From: Alkalihalobacterium alkalinitrilicum
Lineage (GTDB): Bacteria; Bacillota; Bacilli; Bacillales; Bacillaceae_F
Length of the DNA stretch: 64,000 nt
Direction: 5' to 3'
NCBI RefSeq assembly: GCF_002019605.1
Contig: NZ_KV917368.1
Coordinates: 4,106,519 to 4,170,518, forward strand
The notes beneath the pieces were generated by a model, which was not told the DNA's origin, made no database searches, and saw only the letters and a list, made by a program, of their open reading frames with translations. Shown here one piece after another: positions 5,043 to 62,356 of the stretch. Position numbers and translations under genes: made by a program. Numbering within the stretch: position 1 is the first letter of the stretch; every line of letters starts with the position of its first letter.

Positions 5043-5237
5043 ATGCCACAACAAAAGTTAACGATCGTCCCCGTTACACTACACTCCGAAAATAAAGCTC
5101 CCGATACACCAATTTCTCAAACACCTCTTTCAAATAGCGTTTGCACGATCAAAACGGCAACCGCTGAAATATCCTTCTTCAACGGCATAGATGAGCGAAC
5201 CATCCAAACCGTAATGAAGGAGTTGAAACATCTATGA
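5043..5237 (+). CDS. tnpA: IS66 accessory protein TnpA (short form)
   Basis: 64 residues ending in FFNGIDERTIQTVMKELKHL, the usual C-terminal helix of small IS66 TnpA proteins in Firmicutes. A GGAGG precedes the ATG and the stop overlaps the tnpB start by four bases (ATGA). It is needed with TnpB for IS66 transposition by an unclear mechanism. Probably expressed but idle, since tnpC is truncated. Confidence 0.75.
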   Translation: MPQQKLTIVPVTLHSENKAPDTPISQTPLSNSVCTIKTATAEISFFNGIDERTIQTVMKELKHL

Positions 5238-5587
5238 GACACGATTATACTAGCGTGAAAAATATCTATATCATTTGTGGCAAAACCGATATGCGGAAGG
5301 GCATTGACGGATTGGCCACACTGATTCAGGATTCTTTCAAGCTCGATCCGTATGGTGACTCGATATTCTTATTTTCTGGATGGAGTAAAGACCGCTATAA
5401 ATGTCTATATTTCGACGGTGATGGCTTCGCCATGCTCTATAAGCGATTGGATAATGGGAAGCTCCAATGGCCAAAGAATGAAAATGAAGTACGCACTCTT
5501 TCACAAAAGCAAATTCGCTGGCTTCTCGAAGGGTTATCTATAGAGCAACCAAAAGCGATTCCACCATCTCCAAAAGGGGTGTTCTAA
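5234..5587 (+). CDS. tnpB: IS66 accessory protein TnpB
   Basis: 117 residues with the diagnostic IS66 Orf2 pattern: ICGKTDMRKGIDGLATLIQ near the start, DSIFLFSGWSKDRYKCLYFDGDGFAMLYKRL in the middle, and the RTLSQKQIRWLLEGL block. Full length for the family. Translationally coupled to tnpA. Confidence 0.92.
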   Translation: MRHDYTSVKNIYIICGKTDMRKGIDGLATLIQDSFKLDPYGDSIFLFSGWSKDRYKCLYFDGDGFAMLYKRLDNGKLQWPKNENEVRTLSQKQIRWLLEGLSIEQPKAIPPSPKGVF

Positions 5588-5665
5588 ATTTAATAAATCT
5601 ATTAATTTTATCTTTATTCCACTGTTCAAACTACTTATAATAGAAGGAACGAATCTGAACGAAAA

Positions 5666-5878
5666 GTGGTGAATGGTGTGGCGAATGTTTCTTCTAAAAA
5701 TGAAAATCAAAACGAAAAATTAATTCGGCTGCTTGAGGAGCAATTGGCTCATACGAATCAGCAAAATCAAGAGCTATCAAAAAAATTGGATCAATCGTCG
5801 AAACAAATAGAAGCGTTAACACAACAACTTCAAACACTTAACAAGGCTACTGGGGTCTGTCCCCCACTCAGCTAAAGT
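5666..5878 (+). pseudogene. tnpC: IS66 transposase TnpC, N-terminal fragment
   Basis: About 62 residues of the glutamine-rich coiled coil that begins IS66 transposases (LIRLLEEQLAHTNQQNQELS onward, heptads of L/I and Q). The reading then passes into the REP-like repeat, giving GVCPPLS and a stop. All catalytic residues (DDE) and the zinc-finger region are missing. Confidence 0.8.
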
Positions 5879-6066: not shown

Positions 6067-6171
6067 GTGACGACTTACGAAGCAATAACTGTTGCATTAC
6101 AATCAAATTTAGTTTTGATAAGTGTAATTTCATTGATTCTAATTATCGTCAAAGAAATAAGAAAAAAGTAA
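6067..6171 (+). CDS. Holin-like type I toxin (34 aa)
   Basis: GTG start behind GGGAGGTGGTAAG. The product is VTTYEAITVALQSNLVLISV followed by ISLILIIVKEIRKK: a TxxEA N-terminus, one transmembrane helix and a basic tail, the pattern of the TxpA/BsrG-like putative holin-like toxins of Bacillaceae. A TATAAT at 5996-6001 is a plausible -10. The stop codon lies in the stem of its own terminator. Such peptides depolarise or disrupt the membrane and are held off by a convergent antisense RNA, for which a candidate exists just downstream. Confidence 0.8.
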   Translation: MTTYEAITVALQSNLVLISVISLILIIVKEIRKK

Positions 6172-6513: not shown

Positions 6514-7047
6514 TTGGCACGCAAGCCTCGTGTTTGGTTTCCAGGGGCCGTGTTTCATATTACGAGTCGCGGAAACCGTCGTGCTTCTATTTTTTACGAA
6601 CCTGATGATCGATTGATGTATTTATCGATATTAGAAGAAACCCGAAAGTTTTTCCCATTTCATCTTCATGCTTACTGTCTAATGACGAATCATATTCACC
6701 TTCTCCTCGAAACAATCGATAATCCGACGAAGGATATTATCAAAAAGCTACATTCCCTCTATGCGATTTATTTCAATAAGCGGTATAAAACGAGCGGTCA
6801 TTTGTTTCAAGGGCGTTATCATGCAGAATTAATTCGTGATGATCCTCATTTCTTAGAAGTTAGTCGGTACATTCATCTCAATCCAGTGGCAGCGAAAATG
6901 GTCACACGTCCAGATAGCTATCGCTGGAGTAGTTATGCTGCTTATAATTCCTCTCGCTCTAACCCTCATATTAAAACAGAGCGAATTCTATCTTATTTTC
7001 CTCACCCTCAGAAACAAAACTACCAAAAATTCATTGAATCTAAGTAA
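6514..7047 (+). CDS. REP-associated tyrosine transposase (RAYT, Y1/IS200-like)
   Basis: 177 residues, TTG start after GAAAGGTGGGG. RAYT proteins are single-stranded-DNA nucleases of the HUH/Y1 family that process REP repeats. It shows the early GAVFHITSRGNRR block, the metal-binding HUH as MTNHIHLLLE, and the Tyr-containing helix region GHLFQGRYHAELI, then YIHLNPVAAKMV and YRWSSYAAY. REP-like units lie on both sides (5852 and 7909), the classic REPtron layout. Its 3' end is duplicated 1,048 bases downstream. Confidence 0.9.
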   Translation: MARKPRVWFPGAVFHITSRGNRRASIFYEPDDRLMYLSILEETRKFFPFHLHAYCLMTNHIHLLLETIDNPTKDIIKKLHSLYAIYFNKRYKTSGHLFQGRYHAELIRDDPHFLEVSRYIHLNPVAAKMVTRPDSYRWSSYAAYNSSRSNPHIKTERILSYFPHPQKQNYQKFIESK

Positions 7048-7132
7048 ATAAGGAGATTTACCTATTGGCTGTTTCTGTAAGTAGTATTGGGCTAAAAGGT
7101 TTAGAAGGATATGTGATACAGGTGGAGGTTCA
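6891..7132 (+). repeat. 242-bp direct repeat, copy 1 (RAYT 3' end plus comM 5' end)
   Basis: Matches 7939-8180 without indels at a constant offset of 1,048 bases, with scattered substitutions. It covers the last 52 codons of the RAYT, the spacer, and the first 22 codons of comM. Confidence 0.9.
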
Positions 7133-7134
7133 AA
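7065..7134 (+). pseudogene. comM/yifB 5' fragment
   Basis: Starts at TTG 7065 behind AAGGAG exactly like the intact gene at 8113 and reads the same first 22 residues (SVSSIGLKGLEGYVIQVEVQ), then leaves homology. It is the stump of a broken comM copy created by the local duplication. Its ribosome site may still drive a short peptide. Confidence 0.8.
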
Positions 7135-7239
7135 AATGCGAACATGGTCAGCATGATGAAAGGCACAAAACGACATATTAACAAAAATAATGGAAATCAT
7201 AAACTAAAATTTGATATACTTTAGGTGAGGTGATGTTAA

Positions 7240-7521
7240 ATGAACATGTTGAGTGAACATGCCAAACAAGAGTTATTTAATGCACTAAAAGGCAGGCAAT
7301 CTGGAGCTTTTGTAATAGATGGTAAATTAGTTTCTATCGAGATTGAAAATGATAATACGGTTTCACCTAATGATTTAGTAAATGAAGATATTGCTCAAGA
7401 GATTGAAGAGTATCCAGAGTTGAAAGAGTCCTTGTCAAGGTATTTAAATAATCCAGGTATGAAAAGGTATTCTGGAAGTGAGTTGAAAGCTAAACGAAAT
7501 GAAAAAAGAAAATCATTTTAA
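7240..7521 (+). CDS. Antitoxin of a RelE/ParE-type module
   Basis: 93 residues, ATG preceded by GAGGTGATG. Acidic middle (ENDNTVSPNDLVNEDIAQEI) and a C-terminal MKRYSGSELKAKR segment. It overlaps the downstream toxin by 23 bases, as in TA operons. Family not firmly recognised; called antitoxin from position, size, acidity and overlap. It would bind the toxin and the operon promoter. Confidence 0.65.
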   Translation: MNMLSEHAKQELFNALKGRQSGAFVIDGKLVSIEIENDNTVSPNDLVNEDIAQEIEEYPELKESLSRYLNNPGMKRYSGSELKAKRNEKRKSF

Positions 7522-7846
7522 AGTCAGTTTTACAGAAGAGTTTGACTTATGTTTAGATAATATCCAACAGTTTTTTGCTGAACAAGGTGAAGAAACACTA
7601 AACTGGTGGTATACAAAAGAAGATGAAATAATTGATCATATAGAATCGAATCTTTCTGAAAATCCCTTTATTGGTCGAGAAATTCAGAAGGGGAGCTTTA
7701 AGGGACTGAGAAGGATAACCTATGGAAAAAGTAAGCATACGATGTTAAATTATATCATTTATTATGTTGTTTATGAAAATGATGGTTACATTGATGTCAT
7801 TAATATCTTACCTTCGAGGTCAAAACGTAAAAGAATTAAAAAATAA
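7499..7846 (+). CDS. RelE/ParE-type toxin
   Basis: 115 residues with the ParE/RelE plan: an N-terminal strand KVSFTEEFDLCLDNI, helical hairpin, NPFIGREIQKGSFKGLRRI, then the strand pair YIIYYVVYENDGYIDVINIL ending in a basic tail. The frame is intact, unlike the other RelE-type toxins in this window. It sits, with its antitoxin, in the insert between the two 242-bp repeats, so it may stabilise that duplication. Confidence 0.75.
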   Translation: MKKENHFKVSFTEEFDLCLDNIQQFFAEQGEETLNWWYTKEDEIIDHIESNLSENPFIGREIQKGSFKGLRRITYGKSKHTMLNYIIYYVVYENDGYIDVINILPSRSKRKRIKK

Positions 7847-7908
7847 ACAATGCAATTCCAAAGGACGTTGTTTCTCACTAGACAACTTCTTTTATTATAC
7901 GGAAGATT

Positions 7909-7934
7909 TGGAGTCTGTCCCCCACTCAGCTCAG
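7909..7934. repeat. REP-like repeat copy 2
   Basis: GAGTCTGTCCCCCACTCAGC, one change from copy 1 in the core. It lies at the 5' break of the RAYT 3' fragment. Confidence 0.7.
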
Positions 7935-8095
7935 TAGAAGCGAAAATGGTTACACGACCTGAAAGCTACCCTTGGAGTAGTTATGCTGCTTATATTTCCT
8001 CTCGCTCTAATCCTCATATAAAAACAGAGCGAATTCTATCTTATTTTCCTCACCCTCAAAAACAAAACTACCAAAAATTCATTGAATCTAAGTAA
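7935..8095 (+). pseudogene. RAYT 3' fragment
   Basis: The last 53 codons of a RAYT (AKMVTRPESYPWSSYAAYIS onward) in frame with the REP-derived prefix and without a catalytic HUH. Nearly identical to residues 126-177 of the RAYT at 6514. A remnant, not a functional gene. Confidence 0.85.
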
Positions 8096-8180
8096 ATAAG
8101 GAGGTTTACCTATTGTCTGTTTCTGTAAGTAGTATCGGGCTAAAAGGGTTAGAAGGGTATGTGATACAGGTGGAAGTTCA
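7939..8180 (+). repeat. 242-bp direct repeat, copy 2
   Basis: Downstream partner of 6891-7132. This copy continues into the intact comM gene, so it is the ancestral RAYT-comM junction, or the one that kept comM. Confidence 0.9.
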
Positions 8181-9594
8181 TTTGTTACCTGGAATGGAGT
8201 CCATGCATATTGTCGGTCTTCCTGATGCATCCGTAAAGGAATCAAGGGAACGAGTAATGGCGGCACTTCATTCATTAGGAATCAGCCTTCCTGAAAAGAA
8301 AATCATTGTTAATTTATCTCCGTCTGAGCAGAAAAAGAATGGTCCTTTTTTTGATTTGGCGATGGCCGTTGGGATTTTAAAGTCGATTGGAAAAATTGAA
8401 GCTAGTATCCCGCGTCATGCGGCTTTTCTAGGTGCATTGTCACTTGATGGGTCTGTACGCTCGGTCACAGGAATTCTACCTGCTGTGTTAGCGGCTAAAA
8501 AGGAGAACATCCAAACGGTTTATTTAGCCTATGATCCTACTTTACCTTTATCGCTCATTGATGGAATTGAATTACGTTTTGTTGAGCATTTATCAGAAGT
8601 GTTAGATTCGCTAGCGGGTCATGGTACCCTTATGGCCCCAACGCGAGTTGCAGAGAAAGCGACTGAAATGGTGTATGAGCAAGACTTTTCATATATTACG
8701 GGACATAAGGGTGCAAAACGTGCCTTAGAAATTGCGGCTGCTGGAGGGCATAATGTTCTTATGTCAGGGCCACCTGGGTGTGGAAAAAGCCTACTTGCTG
8801 ATACTTTTCCTACGATTTTCCCGCCATTATCGAAAGAAGCCCAGCTTGAAGTCATTAGCTTATACCAATTAGCAGGGAGCAGCTACGTTTCTTCTTCAAT
8901 ACCGCCGTATCGACATCCCCATCATTCTTCCTCAGCCGTTGCCATTATTGGAGGAGGAACTAACCCTAAGCCAGGTGAAATTTCCTTAGCTCATCGCGGT
9001 ATTCTTTTTCTTGATGAATTAGCAGAGTTTTCGCGGAAAACGCTCGATATGTTACGTCAGCCACTAGAAACGGGGAAAGTAACGATTAGTCGTGTTCACT
9101 CGACGGTTACGTATCCCGCCGACTTTTTATTTATCGGTGCGATGAACCCTTGTCCATGTGGTTATTTAGGTTCAAAAACTCATTATTGTACGTGTACACC
9201 AAAGCAAGTAAAAGCTTATCAAACTCGCGTATCTGGTCCAATTAAAGATCGAATGGATATCTTACTCGCATTACAGCCTGTTGATCTGCACAGAAGGGAG
9301 GAAGAAGAGACATCGGCTGTGATAAGAGATCGTGTCATCATGGCAAGACAAAGTCAGTATGAAAGGTACGATAAGGAGATGACAAATGCAAACGTAACGA
9401 TGGAGTTACTGAATAAAGTGAGTCCACTTACTACGCGCCAGCAGCTTTTATTACAAGAAGGGATTTCAACCCATCACTGGAGCAACCGTGTTCAAATCAA
9501 GATCATTCGCTTAGCACGAACGATTGCTGATTTAGAAGGGGAGATGTCGATTACTGATGAGGCACTGGTCGAAGCAATGACGTATCGACGCTGA
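8113..9594 (+). CDS. comM: ComM/YifB family Mg-chelatase-like AAA+ ATPase
   Basis: 493 residues, TTG start behind AAGGAGG. The N-terminal ChlI-like domain (residues 20-170, MHIVGLPDASVKESRERV; VNLSPSEQKKNGPFFDLAMA) precedes an AAA+ core: Walker A GPPGCGKS at 219-226, Walker B GILFLDELAEF near 297, then MNPCPCGYLG with a cysteine cluster and an arginine-finger region. ComM is a hexameric branch-migration helicase that promotes integration of transforming DNA in Gram-negative bacteria; the role in Bacillus is less clear. Full length. It converges with a cassette that carries a ComK-like gene, an interesting neighbour for a competence-linked ATPase. Confidence 0.93.
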   Translation: MSVSVSSIGLKGLEGYVIQVEVHLLPGMESMHIVGLPDASVKESRERVMAALHSLGISLPEKKIIVNLSPSEQKKNGPFFDLAMAVGILKSIGKIEASIPRHAAFLGALSLDGSVRSVTGILPAVLAAKKENIQTVYLAYDPTLPLSLIDGIELRFVEHLSEVLDSLAGHGTLMAPTRVAEKATEMVYEQDFSYITGHKGAKRALEIAAAGGHNVLMSGPPGCGKSLLADTFPTIFPPLSKEAQLEVISLYQLAGSSYVSSSIPPYRHPHHSSSAVAIIGGGTNPKPGEISLAHRGILFLDELAEFSRKTLDMLRQPLETGKVTISRVHSTVTYPADFLFIGAMNPCPCGYLGSKTHYCTCTPKQVKAYQTRVSGPIKDRMDILLALQPVDLHRREEEETSAVIRDRVIMARQSQYERYDKEMTNANVTMELLNKVSPLTTRQQLLLQEGISTHHWSNRVQIKIIRLARTIADLEGEMSITDEALVEAMTYRR

Positions 9595-9624: not shown

Positions 9625-10470
9625 TTACCTCACTAACCACTGCCCCCAAGATTTTTCTTCAGCTGTCCTCTTTCTTTTTTCCACCGCTAGTTTCCCAACT
9701 ACTGTTCCGTAAAAATACTGAATGAAACTCGTTTTTATGAAATTTTGCTTATACTTATAGATCGTTTCCTTGAAGGCTTGTATGATTGGCGGGAGTAAGG
9801 TCTCGATCGGTTGTGCAAACTTCATGGAACGGTAAGCCATTGTGATTCGATCCCATAGGGAACAAATGTCCTTAGCTCGATTAAAGAAGGGCTTGACGGT
9901 TTTGACGAATGGTTCAGGGACATAAGACGGGACAAACGTATGGTTAAGTGCTTCAAGTGTGATTTCTGAATTTAGTTTTGATGATTGACGAAGATCTTTA
10001 TCTTTATGCTCTTTAGTTTTAAATAAAGGAGCTTTCGGTGCTTTTTCCAGTGTTGGATTGCTTGGTGTATCTGGTCTTTTAGCTCCTTGACGGTCTGTCA
10101 ATTGTTGGTCGTGTGCTCCGTCAAAGTGGTGAAAGACATAAACGTTATGAGAGTAACCACCGTTTTGCCTGGTGGTGTGATGAATGCTAATAATACCAAG
10201 TTTTTTTGCTTTTCGCAGCATACGCTCAAAGGTCGAGCGAGAGATCACGCCATTATTGGTTTGAGCGGCTTGAACGAGTTTGCAAATTCTTGCGTTACAG
10301 ATGCCAGGTATTTTTACGCTGTATTGAATTAACGTTAATAGAGCCACCCGTTCTCCTTTTGTGAAGCGGTCCTCGTACTGTTTCCTTACTTTTTTCATTG
10401 TTTCATTGAATTGTTTGACGGAGCGGAATTTGCTTAAGTGAGCGAATTGATCGATATGGCCAGATTTCAC
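9625..10470 (-). CDS. Winged-helix protein of unknown function (cassette copy 1)
   Basis: 281 residues, GTG start seven bases after AAGGAGG. Residues about 30-115 look like a replication-initiator-type winged helix (TKGERVALLTLIQYSVKIPG; GVISRSTFERMLRKAKKLGI; SIHHTTRQNGGYSHNVYVFH). A charged Pro/Lys linker follows, then a second conserved helical block (FVKTVKPFFNRAKDICSLWD; AFKETIYKYKQNFIKTSFIQ). No enzymatic motif is seen. It is the third gene of an Xre-ComK-like-HTH cassette and has a close paralogue at 17344. Candidate DNA-binding effector or replication-type protein; true role unknown. Confidence 0.75.
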   Translation of the reverse strand: MKSGHIDQFAHLSKFRSVKQFNETMKKVRKQYEDRFTKGERVALLTLIQYSVKIPGICNARICKLVQAAQTNNGVISRSTFERMLRKAKKLGIISIHHTTRQNGGYSHNVYVFHHFDGAHDQQLTDRQGAKRPDTPSNPTLEKAPKAPLFKTKEHKDKDLRQSSKLNSEITLEALNHTFVPSYVPEPFVKTVKPFFNRAKDICSLWDRITMAYRSMKFAQPIETLLPPIIQAFKETIYKYKQNFIKTSFIQYFYGTVVGKLAVEKRKRTAEEKSWGQWLVR

Positions 10471-10578
10471 GGGGGTGCCTCCTTGTTTCGATTGAAGTGG
10501 ATTGGTTGGTTAGGATTAATTGGCTGGTGCTGTTCTTTGATATGAGGTGATTGATTAAGCTGATGACATGATGACAGA

Positions 10579-10615
10579 GTTAGCTTGTTCAATGAAAAAA
10601 GATGGACAAGCTAAC
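10579..10615. promoter_or_regulatory. Inverted repeat between ComK-like and winged-helix genes
   Basis: GTTAGCTTGT at 10579-10588 and its exact complement at 10606-10615 around a 17-base loop. It lies in the gap of cassette copy 1 and is absent from copy 2. It occupies the place where the longer ComK C-terminus is encoded in copy 2. Confidence 0.5.
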
Positions 10616-10641
10616 CCATTTTAGGTTGTTCACGCGTAAAG

Positions 10642-11121
10642 TTAGCTAAAGCTCGGATAATGCGTAAAACGTGTCATGCAGTATGAGGTGCGCTGGAGTT
10701 GTTTTTCTATCGTATAGTAAGAGACATGAAGTAATAGTTCTTTACTGTCTATAAAAGTGATAATGGTGTGGGATGGGGCATCGGGATGGCGGTGGATCGA
10801 CTTGATGTGATGATAGAAAAGCCAGTGGCATTCATACAACTTCGGGGAATGGGTCGGAAACGCATAAATTTGTTCGTGTGGAAGCACGGGAATCGGAACT
10901 TTACTGTTGACCCCTGTTTTATGAGTAACAGCTGCGCGTCTACCGTTGTAGTCGGCACCGCCTTCTAAACAAGCTTCTTTGATCAGCTGCAGCGGCGTCT
11001 TTTTTACATAATAGCGTTGATCTTCTTCCCAGACGGTCGTTTGATAGTCGTTGTGGTAAGCAGGGAGGAGGGCAGACGTGGCTTTGTTGATTTCGTAGTG
11101 ATCGAGGATGATTTCAGTCAT
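10642..11121 (-). CDS. ComK-like competence transcription factor, C-terminally short (copy 1)
   Basis: 159 residues, ATG seven bases after AAAGGAG. The ComK pattern is clear: YEINKAT near the start, TPLQLIKEACLEGGADYNGRRAA (ComK: PLQIVDRSC...GR-A), VPIPVLPHEQIYAFPTHSP, then HHIKSIHRHPDAPSHTIITF and VSYYTIEKQLQRTSYCMTRF. ComK binds A/T-rich K-boxes as a tetramer and switches on DNA-uptake genes. The protein stops about 39 residues before the end of the paralogue at 18233 and of typical ComK (about 190 residues), so activity is uncertain. Confidence 0.85.
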   Translation of the reverse strand: MTEIILDHYEINKATSALLPAYHNDYQTTVWEEDQRYYVKKTPLQLIKEACLEGGADYNGRRAAVTHKTGVNSKVPIPVLPHEQIYAFPTHSPKLYECHWLFYHHIKSIHRHPDAPSHTIITFIDSKELLLHVSYYTIEKQLQRTSYCMTRFTHYPSFS

Positions 11122-11161
11122 TTTGGGGGCTCCTTTATGGGGGGAATTTTTTGAAGGATAA

Positions 11162-12800: not shown

Positions 12801-12990
12801 ATTTGTAGAATACTGGAGTGCTAAGCTATCATAAGTTTATCATTTCGCTTCTCTCCATAATTAAAAATAGAGCTATTTGTTATGTACGGATAACCAATCA
12901 ATTCATCTTCAATCATCGGATTCGTACAAGAGGAACTCAAAAAGAATATCTAACCTGTATGTGGGAAAATTAAAATCAGGAGGGATTGAA

Positions 12991-13395
12991 TTGGAACATA
13001 GAGCAGGGTTTTGGATTCGATTTGTGGCTTTACTTATAGATAGTTTTATTTTAGGTATCGTTCAATTGATTATAACTTTTATTTTTAATGCATTTCTTGA
13101 CCCTGATACTGGAGATGTAATAACCTCAATCATAAGCTTATTCATTACATTTGCATATTTCGTTTGGTTTCAAGCCAAAAATAATGGACAAACATTCGGT
13201 AAAAAGCTAACGGGTATCCGTGTTGCTAATTTAGATGGCGAACAAGTGACAATAGGGAAAATGGCATTAAGAGAAATCATCGGTAAGACCGTTTCTACTT
13301 TAATACTTTTAATTGGTTTTTTAATGGCAGCGGGAAGACAAAAAAGAGCATTGCACGACTATATTGGTAAGACGGTTGTCATAAGAGCTGAATAA
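12991..13395 (+). CDS. RDD-family membrane protein
   Basis: 134 residues. The start is a TTG (12991) seven bases after CAGGAGGG; an in-frame ATG further up lacks a ribosome site. RDD pattern: HRAGFWIRFVALLIDSFILG with Arg-Asp in the first helix, a second helix with FVWFQAKNNGQTFGKKLTGI, and RALHDYIGKTVVI at the end. RDD proteins are small polytopic membrane proteins, some linked to ion transport. A terminator follows, then the M48-ankyrin gene. Confidence 0.85.
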   Translation: MEHRAGFWIRFVALLIDSFILGIVQLIITFIFNAFLDPDTGDVITSIISLFITFAYFVWFQAKNNGQTFGKKLTGIRVANLDGEQVTIGKMALREIIGKTVSTLILLIGFLMAAGRQKRALHDYIGKTVVIRAE

Positions 13396-13397
13396 AA

Positions 13398-13432
13398 AAT
13401 AACCTTTCCTCATCGTCAGGAAAGGTTATTTT
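13398..13432 (+). terminator. Terminator after RDD gene
   Basis: AATAACCTTTCCT and complement AGGAAAGGTTATT, loop CATCGTC, then TT. It starts three bases after the stop. Confidence 0.8.
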
Positions 13433-13449
13433 AAAAGGAGGATTGTATC

Positions 13450-14727
13450 ATGGACAAACCACTTCTTGTACATAAACATGAGAATTTAATGTATGGTGTC
13501 TGTGTCTTAATTAGTATAACTTTGGTTATATATTTACTTCTCTCAATTATTGGTGCCCTCATTTTATTCATTGTCGGTCTTGTTTCATTTTTTTCCCATG
13601 CAATTTCTATGTCTCATATCCAAGTAAACGGTGTTAGGTTAAAAGTAAATCAATTTCCTGAATTATATAACAGAGTTGAAGAAATCAGTAGCAAAATGGA
13701 ATTATCCAAACTTCCAGAAGTTTATATTGTTGAGTCTGGTGGTTTGTTAAACGCCTTCGCAACAAAGGTATTTAGTTTTTTAGGTAAAAATATAGTTGTT
13801 CTTTACTCCGATTTTGTTGATATTTGCCTTAAATCTAATGGAAATGAAATTGATTATGTCATTGCTCACGAACTTGCTCATATAAAAAGAAATCATATTA
13901 GAAAATTTTTCTTTATTTTTCCTGCTTTATGGATTCCATTTATCGGGACAAGCTATTCAAGAATGGCTGAATATACTTGTGACCGAATGGCAGCATATTA
14001 TACCGAGAAACCTGAAGATGCTATTAAAGGGTTGTTAGTTTTAGCAGCTGGAAGACGATTATATAAAGGAGTTAATTTAAAGGAATACCTAGAACAATAC
14101 AACGATAAAAAAGGTCTATTTGTAACACTAATGGAATTACTCTCTACTCATCCCCCTATTCCTAAAAGGATACAAGAAATTGAAAATTTAATGTATGGAA
14201 AGCCAAGCGTTTCCCTAATCAACAGAAAGAAACAAACTTTCGCTATTTTATTTTTAGTATTTTTTTTACTTCCAATAATAGTAGGCGGAGTTGCTTTTGC
14301 TGGATTTATGGCAATGGAACATTTTAATACCTTTGATGACTTTCTATTTGAATACACCCCTTTAATGGAAGCGACAGGGGATGGGGACACCGAAAGAGTA
14401 ATTGAACTAATACATGCTGGAGAAGATCCAAATGAGATGAATGAGTTTGGAGAAAGCCCTCTTTTTATAGCAGTAATGCATGAAGATATAGAAATCATTA
14501 AAATTTTATTGGAGAATGGAGCTGATCCTAATATACAAGATCCAGAGGGGTGGGCTCCTCTTATGTCAGCAGTTTATACTGAGAATATTGAAGTAAGTAC
14601 AATCTTACTGGAAGCAGGAGCTGACCCACTAATAATGGATGATTATGGAATGACGGCGATTGATTATGCAAAAGAAATCGGCAATAATGATTTTATCCGT
14701 CTGACCAATTCTTTTATAAGTGATTAG
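13450..14727 (+). CDS. M48-type membrane metallopeptidase fused to ankyrin repeats
   Basis: 425 residues, ATG behind AAGGAGG. Two N-terminal helices (18-50) precede an M48/Ste24-HtpX-like peptidase with the zinc motif HELAH at 140-144 and the downstream glutamate segment RMAEYTCDRMAAYY. A further transmembrane helix (about 262-288) is followed by three ankyrin repeats (about 308-420: TPLMEATGDGDTERVIELI; SPLFIAVMHEDIEIIKILL; APLMSAVYTENIEVSTILLE). Depending on topology, the ankyrins could select or regulate substrates. This fusion is uncommon. Probably monocistronic, with a REP-like unit just after the stop. Confidence 0.9.
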   Translation: MDKPLLVHKHENLMYGVCVLISITLVIYLLLSIIGALILFIVGLVSFFSHAISMSHIQVNGVRLKVNQFPELYNRVEEISSKMELSKLPEVYIVESGGLLNAFATKVFSFLGKNIVVLYSDFVDICLKSNGNEIDYVIAHELAHIKRNHIRKFFFIFPALWIPFIGTSYSRMAEYTCDRMAAYYTEKPEDAIKGLLVLAAGRRLYKGVNLKEYLEQYNDKKGLFVTLMELLSTHPPIPKRIQEIENLMYGKPSVSLINRKKQTFAILFLVFFLLPIIVGGVAFAGFMAMEHFNTFDDFLFEYTPLMEATGDGDTERVIELIHAGEDPNEMNEFGESPLFIAVMHEDIEIIKILLENGADPNIQDPEGWAPLMSAVYTENIEVSTILLEAGADPLIMDDYGMTAIDYAKEIGNNDFIRLTNSFISD

Positions 14728-15942: not shown

Positions 15943-16392
15943 TTGTATATGTTAGAAAAAATCTATGAAAAAATCCCCTATGAACTGGTCGCTTACTGTT
16001 TCATGACCAACCACTTCCACCTCCAATTACGCTCCAAAGAAGCATCCATCTCAAAAGTCATGGCCCTGTTGAATAAACGGTATGCGAACTACTACAATAC
16101 AAAGTATCGTTTAACCGGTCACGTGTTGGAAAAGCGGTTTTTTTCAGAGGTCATCGAAGATGCGACAGGCATGCTTGAAGTGGCTCGTTATATTTTTTTA
16201 AATCCTGTGAAAGCACGGATGGTACGCTTCCCTGGACATTATCCATGGAGTAGCTTTCAGTTATACACCAACTCCAACATCCTTCCACCCTTATATATGG
16301 ATACTGAGCGTCTTTTAAACTATTTTCCTGGGCCTGCTGAAGAGAAAAGACGGCAGATAGTGGATTTTGTAAAGTCAGCAATTCGTTTCTGA
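15943..16392 (+). pseudogene. 5'-truncated RAYT transposase
   Basis: 149 residues begin inside the RAYT fold: KIPYELVAYCFMTNHFHLQL holds the HUH motif (HFH), then LTGHVLEKRFFSEVIEDATG, YIFLNPVKARMV and YPWSSFQLY. The first strand with the RGN motif is absent and upstream codons hit a TGA at 15928. Divergent from the RAYT at 6514, so it is a second lineage. A REP-like unit follows. Confidence 0.8.
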
Positions 16393-17343: not shown

Positions 17344-18192
17344 TCACCGTTTCTCCAACCACCGCCCCCAAGCTTTTCCTTCGAAAGTCATCCTGCGTTT
17401 TTCTATCGCTAATTTCCCAGCAACCGTCCCGTAAAAATACTGAATGAAACTCGTTTTTATGTAATTTTGCTTATACTTATAGATCGTTTCCTTGAACGCT
17501 TGGATGATTGGCGGGAGTAAGGTCTCGATCGGTTGTGCAAACTTCATGGAACGGTAAGCCATTGTGATTCGATCCCATAGGGAACAAATGTCTTTGGAGC
17601 GGTTAAAGAATGGCTTGACTGTTTTGACGAATGGTGTCGGGACATAGGACGGGACAAACGTATGATCAAGTTGTTCAAGTGTGGTTTCTGAATCTAGTTT
17701 TGATGATTGACGAAGATCTTTATCTTTATGTTCTTTAGTTTTTAATAGAGAAGCTTCCAGTGCCTTTTCGGGTGCTGGATGGCTTGGTGTATCTGGTTTT
17801 TTAGCTGCACGACGGTCTGTCAATTGTTGGTCCTGTGCTCTGTCAAAGGGGTGAAAGACATAGATGTTATGGGAAAATCCGCCTTGTTGACGAGTGGTAT
17901 GATGAATGCTAAGGATACCGAGTGTTTTTGCTTTTCTAAGCATGCGTTCAAAGGTAGAACGAGAGATGACGCCGTTATGAGTTTGGGCGGCTTGTACGAG
18001 TTTACAAATTCTCGCATTGCAGATCCCAGGTATTTTGACGCTGTATTGGATTAAGGTTAAAAGAGCGATCTTTTCTCCTTTTGTGAAGTGGTGTTCATAT
18101 TGTTTTCTTACAACTTTCATCGTTTCATTGAATAGTTTGACGGATTGGAACTTACTTAAGTGTACGAATTGGTCGATGTGGCCTGGTTTCAC
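17344..18192 (-). CDS. Winged-helix protein of unknown function (cassette copy 2)
   Basis: 282 residues, GTG start after AAGGAGG, closely similar to the protein at 9625 over its whole length. The winged helix (about 30-115) and the C-terminal helical block (SLWDRITMAYRSMKFAQPIE; AFKETIYKYKQNYIKTSFIQ) are nearly unchanged. Differences gather in the proline/charged linker (about 125-175). That pattern indicates selection on both domains. Third gene of the second Xre-ComK-like-HTH cassette. Confidence 0.75.
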   Translation of the reverse strand: MKPGHIDQFVHLSKFQSVKLFNETMKVVRKQYEHHFTKGEKIALLTLIQYSVKIPGICNARICKLVQAAQTHNGVISRSTFERMLRKAKTLGILSIHHTTRQQGGFSHNIYVFHPFDRAQDQQLTDRRAAKKPDTPSHPAPEKALEASLLKTKEHKDKDLRQSSKLDSETTLEQLDHTFVPSYVPTPFVKTVKPFFNRSKDICSLWDRITMAYRSMKFAQPIETLLPPIIQAFKETIYKYKQNYIKTSFIQYFYGTVAGKLAIEKRRMTFEGKAWGRWLEKR

Positions 18193-18232
18193 GGGGATGC
18201 CTCCTTGTTTCGATTGAAGTTGGAATGTTGGA

Positions 18233-18829
18233 TTAATAGGTAATATATGTTAGGGGTACAGGGTAGTGTTTTCTTTGGAGGTGTTGGATTGTCTTGTGGA
18301 TAAATTGTAGACAGAAAGACTTGCACCATTGGTTTATCGGTAGTGAGTTAGTTTTATGGATTGAATATTGTGGGAAGCGAGTAATGCAATACGACGTGCG
18401 CTGAAGTTGTTTTTCGATCGTATAGTAGGAGACGTGAAGTAATAGTTCTTTATTGTCTTTAAAGGTGATAATGGTGTGGGATGGAGCGTCGGGATGGCGT
18501 TGAATCGACTTGACGTGATAATAGAAAAGCCAGTGACATTCGTGCAGCTTCGGGGAATGAGTCGGAAACGCATAAATTTGTTTGTGTGGAATCACAGGGA
18601 TGGGAACTTTATTGTTGACCCCTGTTTTATGGGAAACTGCTGCACGTCTCCCGTTGAAGTCCGCACCGCCTTCTAAACAAGCTTCTTTAATGAGCTGGAG
18701 CGGAGTCTTTCTGACATAAAAGCGTTGGTCTTTTTCCCAGACGATCGTTTGGTAGTCGGTGTGATAAGCGGGGATAAGGGCAGCGGTGGCTTTGTTGATT
18801 TCGTAATGATCGAGGATGATATCATTCAT
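18233..18829 (-). CDS. ComK-like competence transcription factor, full length (copy 2)
   Basis: 198 residues, matching the length of classical ComK (about 190). The same motifs as copy 1 are present: TPLQLIKEACLEGGADFNGR, VPIPVIPHKQIYAFPTHSP and VSYYTIEKQLQRTSYCITRF. It adds a C-terminal stretch CKSFCLQFIHKTIQHLQRKH absent from copy 1. In B. subtilis the C-terminal part of ComK supports multimer formation and activation, so this copy is the better candidate for an active regulator. The gap to the winged-helix gene is only 40 bases, consistent with an operon. Confidence 0.87.
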   Translation of the reverse strand: MNDIILDHYEINKATAALIPAYHTDYQTIVWEKDQRFYVRKTPLQLIKEACLEGGADFNGRRAAVSHKTGVNNKVPIPVIPHKQIYAFPTHSPKLHECHWLFYYHVKSIQRHPDAPSHTIITFKDNKELLLHVSYYTIEKQLQRTSYCITRFPQYSIHKTNSLPINQWCKSFCLQFIHKTIQHLQRKHYPVPLTYITY

Positions 18830-18962
18830 TTTTAGTGGGCTCCTTTATTAGAGGGATTTTATGGAACTGATTTCATTCGTGCAAGTGAGGGTTTTTTTGA
18901 GGGACTGTTGTAGAGAAGGAACAAGAAGGGTTATTTTAGTTTATTAAGGTATTGTGGTCCAT

Positions 18963-62154: not shown

Positions 62155-62344
62155 AATAATAAGAACTATTATTGCACTTGTCTCCAACAAAAAGAAAAAG
62201 TAACTACCCACCGATCTGACCAAAGAGTAAGGTAGTTACTTTTTCTAAGTATATTATTTGAAATTTCAGGTCAGCCGCTCTTCATGCGGCATGTCGTTGC
62301 ATTGGCTGAGTGTTTACCGCACTCGGCCATTCTTTATTCTATGA
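62155..62344 (+). pseudogene. Type I toxin remnant with antitoxin-RNA block
   Basis: Codons IRTIIALVSNKKKK and stop (ending at 62203) are the tail of a holin-like toxin whose start is lost. The AAAAAGTAACTACC / GGTAGTTACTTTTT terminator (62196-62244) and the GCCGCTCTTCATGCGGC hairpin block follow exactly as at 6163-6345. So the antisense-RNA half survives while the toxin is decapitated. Confidence 0.7.
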
Positions 62345-62356
62345 GAATTATGAGCC

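Follow-up and report, generated by a model that had tools for sequence, protein, structure and literature searches.

The window analyzed here is a stretch of 64,000 nucleotides (G000:C1:4106519-4170518) from a genome of 5.5 Mb. Between positions 5851 and 9594 it carries, in this order, a half palindrome, about 630 bp of sequence, an intact RAYT gene, a 17-bp gap, a stump of comM, an antitoxin-like open reading frame (ORF), a toxin gene, a second half palindrome, the tail of a RAYT gene, another 17-bp gap, and a complete comM gene. The features of this locus and of its surroundings are collected in Table 1. The intact RAYT scores 84.5 bits against the cut-off of 80 for NF047646, and no Pfam or NCBIfam family was found for orf281.

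Table 1. Features at and around the duplicated RAYT-comM junction (positions in the window)
Feature	Position	Strand	Evidence or remark
TIR/REP-like half palindrome where, as proposed, the copied unit starts on its left; truncates IS66 tnpC	5851..5873	+	22 of 23 bases as in 7909-7931
Intact RAYT (TnpAREP-like HUH transposase), 181 aa	6502..7047	+	PF01797 Y1_Tnp; NF047646 REP_Tyr_transpos; HIH and YIHLNP in the translation
Direct repeat copy 1: RAYT 3' end, 17-bp gap, comM codons 1-23	6891..7132	+	225/242 identical to copy 2
comM stump, codons 1-23	7065..7133	+	tblastn, 91% to comM residues 1-23
Putative antitoxin, 93 aa, 23-bp overlap with the toxin gene	7240..7521	+	Homologous ORF 5' of the toxin in other genomes
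ParE/RelE-type toxin, 115 aa	7499..7846	+	PF05016 ParE_toxin, 24.3 bits (cut-off, 23)
Half palindrome, fused directly to the RAYT tail	7909..7931	+	Self-comparison, BLASTN
Direct repeat copy 2: RAYT codons 131-181, 17-bp gap, comM codons 1-23	7939..8180	+	Match reaches left to 7932 (RAYT codon 128)
RAYT tail	7932-8095	+	Sequence match to the intact RAYT
Intact comM (YifB AAA+ ATPase), 493 aa, TTG start	8113..9594	+	TIGR00368, 482.6 bits (cut-off, 362.4)
orf281, comK neighbor	9625..10470	-	Homologues near comM or comK in G001, G002, and L029
comK (competence regulator)	10642..11121	-	PF06338, 147.7 bits
Truncated RAYT-B	15943..16392	+	PF01797; 82% to the RAYT directly 3' of comM in G002
Second orf281-comK copy	17344..18829	-	17357-18863 82.5% to 9635-11153; PF06338 for 18233-18829

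A sequence-only reading of the window had proposed that 242 bp spanning the RAYT-comM junction are duplicated without gaps, the copies being offset by 1,048, and this is borne out, with 17 mismatches between the copies. When copy 1 was slid over the whole window, the second-best site was identical at only 94 of 242 positions, which rules out a chance repeat. By BLASTN the match runs further left, to 6884 and 7932 (249 bp, 92.4%), and another self-comparison returned the same repeat pair as 256 nucleotides at 91%. Both truncated genes that had been described, a RAYT tail and a comM stump, were recovered as well: copy 1 belongs to a complete RAYT followed by a comM stump of 23 codons, while copy 2 joins a RAYT tail, starting at codon 128, to a complete comM. 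The mismatches are spread unevenly, with 7 of the 17 falling within the first 34 bases of the repeat (hypergeometric P = 0.004), a clustering that is compatible with partial gene conversion between the copies. Since DNA identity is higher between the copies (92 to 93%) than with the relatives compared (67 to 82% in matches longer than 55 bp; short pieces of 50 to 53 bp are 76 to 87% identical), the copying appears to be recent relative to the divergence of those genomes. Recombination between the repeats would excise the toxin-antitoxin (TA) pair and leave 17 bp between RAYT and comM, which is nearly the layout in other genomes. An unduplicated state of this exact site was not found in relatives, and the three other genomes of the genus lack the arrangement; full-length comM is present in only one of the three (G002), and another (G003) has decayed comM pieces only. 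In G003, the RAYT match ends before the tail, and a RAYT tail and a comM start lie some 24 kb off (L109 4850-4972; L110 4813-5268).

The sequence-only reading missed two features: the half palindrome at 5851-5873, sister to the one that abuts copy 2, and the larger orf281-comK duplication, the second copy of which lies behind the truncated RAYT-B. The two half palindromes differ at a single base and have the same orientation, the second lying beyond the comM stump and the TA pair. The genome sites listed for the 12-base core, with 1 mismatch allowed, number 23, and only these two share the continuation CTCAGCT; we infer that the half palindrome at 7909 is a copy of the one at 5851. On the minus strand the window palindrome reads GGGGACAG, with matches to the published motif GGGGWSAS at 5857 and 7915. 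A full copy of the palindrome folds as a strong hairpin (-16.2 kcal/mol, z = -6.6), and folding found no full hairpin in either of the half copies in the window; by eye, no GT[AG]G tag was found outside the stem, and GTGG lies at the junction of the inner stem end and the loop. The palindromes form a modest family, occur singly or in pairs, and look to have spread locally rather than genome-wide. In G002, palindromes flank the match to a RAYT of the window type, at distances of 17 bp from one end and 170 bp from the other. As to their distribution, the core GTCTGWCCCCCA is found 59 times in G002, with 42 of these sites in C12:1834-18662 and C28:21415-45545 (L276, L277, and L111); on C12 it sits in or at the edge of nearly all intergenic gaps as far as comK, and C28 carries the RAYT. 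In the window genome itself, where 23 sites were listed with 1 mismatch allowed, 7 are no more than about 43 kb away from the locus described here.

Pairing of RAYT with comM extends well beyond the window. Across the order of the window genome, a RAYT gene or RAYT fragment lies on the same strand within 1.5 kb of 29 of the 31 comM genes that were matched over more than 350 residues in 30 regions, the exceptions being G092, with its RAYT 2.1 kb away, and G105, with none. The gap, measured between matched stretches rather than gene ends, is at most 125 bp for 25 of the 31 comM genes, and the RAYT lies downstream in 18 cases and upstream in 11. These 30 regions are the best 30 comM loci, one per genome, among 150 genomes, further long comM matches having been left aside; a RAYT profile matched in 29 of them, partly by construction, as the profile was built from the same regions (stretches of up to 120 residues excluded). 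Independent of the profile are the 29 control regions (22 centered on comK genes of the same genomes, the other 7 placed arbitrarily), none of which matched, and 80 comM loci drawn from many phyla, of which 4 did: loci of Bacillus, Geobacillus, and Anoxybacillus, each with the match beside comM, and a weak match in a Bacteroidales genome. The outside comM loci of Neobacillus and Metabacillus gave no match. Distances between comM genes correlate with those between their RAYT partners (Mantel r = 0.50; 0 of 2,000 permutations), with the qualification that several partners are fragments, the 56-residue tail in the window included, and that shared genome ancestry alone could produce such a correlation. 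A match to comK was present in 145 of the 150 sampled genomes of the order; of the 14 named control genomes, Bacillus subtilis was the only one with such a match, and the window genome has four ComK matches. ComM is described in a passage of PMC11612176, with reference to the Gram-negative protein, as a branch-migration helicase acting in transformation, and the open-access papers listed in literature searches included none on a link between RAYT genes and comM.

Partial copies of RAYT and comM with an edge at a palindrome were found elsewhere in the order. In G008, a genome of another family, a 955-bp duplication (95%) starts in both copies at ATTCAGGGGTCTGACCCCC, takes in an entire RAYT, and breaks off at comM codon 9, with a full comM after the second copy. 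The duplication in G127 (1,753 bp, 93.5%) starts at TGGNGCCTGACCCCC and ends within comM, at about residue 236, and five further genomes (G106, G068, G100, G092, and G001) each have a partial RAYT or comM copy with a related motif no more than 18 bp from an edge. In G100, moreover, a comM fragment (residues 1 to 147) lies between near-identical palindromic repeats in direct orientation (L174, 5864-6518).

The association was quantified for 11 duplications hand-picked from a self-comparison of 25 loci and the window, some of these loci having been chosen for their several comM pieces. A motif fitted after the edges had been viewed lies within 25 bp of 14 of the 44 edges and at 9 of the 11 duplications (8 genomes), whereas shifted positions gave 0.92 edges (none of 3,000 shifts reached the observed value); the left edges in the window had been set at the palindromes themselves. 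For the published GGGGWSAS, the counts were 8 of 44 edges and 5 of 11 duplications, which none of 5,000 shifts reached; without the window, they were 6 of 40 edges (0 of 5,000 shifts) and 4 of 10 duplications (6 of 5,000). By the fitted motif, 2 of the 11 duplications have no palindrome at any edge, and there is none at the right edge of copy 1 in the window (7132). The set leaves out matches shorter than 200 bp or below 80% and those touching neither comM nor RAYT, and two matches within these limits were also excluded, namely, a 457-bp match nested in another duplication of L176 (palindrome 13 bp from its edge) and a 227-bp tandem repeat within comM of L177 (no palindrome). The link to a REP-like unit suggested by the sequence-only reading is thereby upheld, as a palindrome abuts the edge of the duplication in the window and similar palindromes occur at the edges of other comM/RAYT duplications. 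Of the 30 comM regions, 14 contained a direct repeat no shorter than 200 bp and at least 80% identical, versus 6 of the 29 control regions (one-sided Fisher P = 0.033); such repeats overlap comM or RAYT genes in only 4 of the 30 comM regions, and many others lie apart. Inverted repeats within the same limits were absent from all 59 regions, by a filter validated on a made-up inverted repeat.

On the basis of these observations, we consider it fairly probable that the window locus arose by a partial local duplication anchored at a palindrome, followed by deletions. The ancestral locus would have been a palindrome-RAYT-comM unit, in which the segment from the palindrome to early comM was copied locally and in direct orientation; the position of the sister half palindrome (22 of 23 bases), ahead of the intact RAYT, makes it probable that what was copied comprised the palindrome, RAYT, and the 5' end of comM. 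Copy 1 would then have lost everything past comM codon 23, so that it now runs into the ParE-type TA pair, and copy 2 would have lost about 1 kb between its half palindrome and RAYT codon 128, leaving one intact RAYT, one intact comM, and the TA pair. The order of these events is one that we infer from the anatomy. The copying may have been triggered by breakage of a hairpin, either by the RAYT or by fork stalling, and the RAYT would in the former case have had a part in it. A plain tandem duplication would make copy 1 abut the palindrome of copy 2; since 776 bp lie between them, the anatomy calls for an additional insertion or for another kind of event. Hairpin-anchored copying combined with deletion is most likely to account for the anatomy by events that are seen elsewhere in the order.

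Elements of the IS91/ISCR type move by one-ended transposition, with one fixed end and one variable end, and the constant and variable ends seen in three genomes (window, G008, and G127) resemble this, although IS91/ISCR belong to a separate HUH family. By such HUH-type copying, the RAYT would have nicked the palindrome and copied outward into comM up to a variable stop, in which case the truncated upstream copy would be newly inserted and the palindrome-RAYT-comM downstream of it would be original. This alternative, which we hold to be rather unlikely, would explain why the left edge is fixed at a palindrome in all three genomes, why the right edge falls at different places in comM (codon 23 in the window, codon 9 in G008, and about residue 236 in G127), and why the truncated copy is upstream each time. 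It also predicts, as strand-specific single-strand insertion, that the large repeats in the 30 comM regions should all be direct, which they are; however, the 29 control regions are likewise without inverted repeats. Moreover, no interrupted gene surrounds the supposed new copy in the window, IS66 tnpC is not resumed at 7133, and a search of the window's own genome matched only this place. Autonomous mobility of RAYT genes is, in the terms of a passage in PMC6006769, not established.

The sequence-only reading had also placed an intact RelE/ParE-type TA pair and a REP-like unit between the copies. This stands for the toxin, with a marginal PF05016 call, and for the REP-like unit, which is a half palindrome, whereas the antitoxin is no more than putative, as no Pfam or NCBIfam family was found for the ORF at 7240-7521; the toxin has no NCBIfam match. 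We refer to the two ORFs as a predicted, putative type II TA pair of the ParE/RelE kind. Among toxin homologues, that of G312 scores 25.7 bits against PF05016 and that of G030 has no match. A homologue of the antitoxin-like ORF lies 5' of the toxin in six other genomes, with fragments in a seventh. Of 397 genomes of the order, 11 have a match to the toxin, the window genome included, and in 8 of these the match covers at least 84 residues; the toxin is absent from the three other genomes of the genus. Neither the plasmid nor the phage collection contained a match to it, for which reason a TA pair carried in as plasmid or phage cargo was rejected.

That a duplication or REP-mediated event captured the TA pair between the copies, with the pair then retained because its loss by recombination would be penalized, had been the interpretation offered by that reading. 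The TA pair does lie between direct repeats whose recombination would remove it, with a palindrome at the edge, but TA genes were also found beside or near comM in G094 and G312, which, together with the window genome, are the three among the eight genomes matched over at least 84 residues that have comM within 2.2 kb of the toxin. G094 has RAYT, comM, antitoxin, and a truncated toxin, with comK facing; its TA genes are 67 to 74% identical to those of the window, start no more than about 200 bp from where an intact comM ends, and include a toxin cut at residue 84. G312 has comM, RAYT-B, and then the TA pair (74 to 77% identical, 2.1 kb past comM), again with comK facing. No duplicated RAYT-comM junction was found in the stretch read of either genome, and since the TA pair thus recurs near comM without the duplication, capture by duplication is not required. 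Conversely, the comM duplications of G008 and G127 have no such TA pair in the searched stretches. Relatives with the TA genes and without the duplication, which the sequence-only reading had named as speaking against capture, therefore do exist near comM, outside the genus and in distant families; they weaken the proposal without disproving it here, and we regard it as improbable. Other toxin loci include G159, with a weak comK remnant (E = 2.5e-4) within 1.2 kb of the toxin; G010, G319, and G030, with neither comM nor comK in the 9 to 13 kb read; and G278, where the toxin (42%) has stops inside, 3.3 kb contained no comM or comK, and the only comM-like match is weak.

Import by natural transformation, in which the TA pair and RAYT tail-comM of a diverged relative recombined in, at one end illegitimately, so that the repeat is 93% rather than 100% identical, would suit the presence of both comK and comM in the locus and the uneven 7% divergence, yet it seems very improbable given that each copy resembles the other more closely than it does the relatives compared and that the divergence is accounted for just as well by an old local copy.

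Returning to palindrome-anchored duplication, a broader proposal is that RAYT and ComM form a working pair in the comK-bearing bacteria of this order, a HUH single-strand nuclease alongside a branch-migration helicase. The RAYT would cut its own palindromes and copy adjoining DNA into nearby single-stranded sites; comM and RAYT would thus be part-copied repeatedly with one end at a palindrome, palindromes would pile up around RAYT and comK-comM, and the window would be a frozen product of this activity. We put this forward as speculation with a small chance of being right.

Several known systems resemble the locus in part. TIRtrons, or TIRYTs, are presented in passages of Di Nocera et al. 2013 (PMC3733652) as RAYT-like genes between terminal inverted repeats, some of them with GGGGWSAS; the window likewise has a RAYT-like gene with HUH and catalytic-Y motifs and a palindrome that fits GGGGWSAS and occurs in single and paired copies. 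It differs in that the gene is tied to comM, the palindrome on the 3' side lies past a comM stump and a TA pair, and the two half copies have the same orientation. The window RAYT, with its Y---NP (YIHLNP) and HUH motifs and an NF047646 score over the cut-off, is also like the RAYT/TnpAREP class 2 as characterized in part of Quentin et al. 2018 (PMC6006769). Finally, mobile elements inserted in comM or comK figure in passages of Croucher et al. 2016 (PMC4774983), and the likeness consists in competence genes being sites of mobile-element activity; in the window, however, comM is partly copied, one copy is intact, and no integrase was seen between the copies.

As a single locus, the duplication is modest; greater interest lies in the pairing of RAYT with comM and in the copies edged by palindromes. 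What RAYTs, which look like domesticated transposases, do in the cell is poorly known, and a recombination ATPase as an almost constant neighbor on the same strand offers a concrete hypothesis for it. Partial gene copies edged by palindromes would preserve a physical mark of what RAYTs do beyond the spreading of REPs. If RAYT and ComM cooperate, palindrome dispersal and transformation become testable through one gene pair; if they do not, the locus remains a clear case of hairpin-edged duplication and decay.

Some further observations concern the surrounding sequence. IS66 homology ends at 5848, beside the half palindrome at 5851. The IS66 element is split, with its front half at 5043-5848 of the window and its back half about 8 kb upstream (G000:C1, about 4104032-4105514; L213); the halves overlap by some 60 bp, palindromes lie at both broken ends, and a palindrome pair immediately precedes the back half. 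That IS66 tnpC was split by one simple insertion was rejected, as the back half lies upstream of the front half and the order does not fit. Upstream of the RAYT, a short ORF (6067-6171) resembles holin-like toxins (PF16935; its score of 19.7 bits falls short of the cut-off, 23.3), and 6163-6320 matches 62195-62354 at 77%. No RNA family was found in the window at gathering thresholds. Defense-system models gave no match for RAYT, the TA pair, orf281, or comK; comM has weak matches to RtcR-type defense models, and the neighbors at 12877-14727 match PD-T4-6 and ankyrin/PDC-M72A models.
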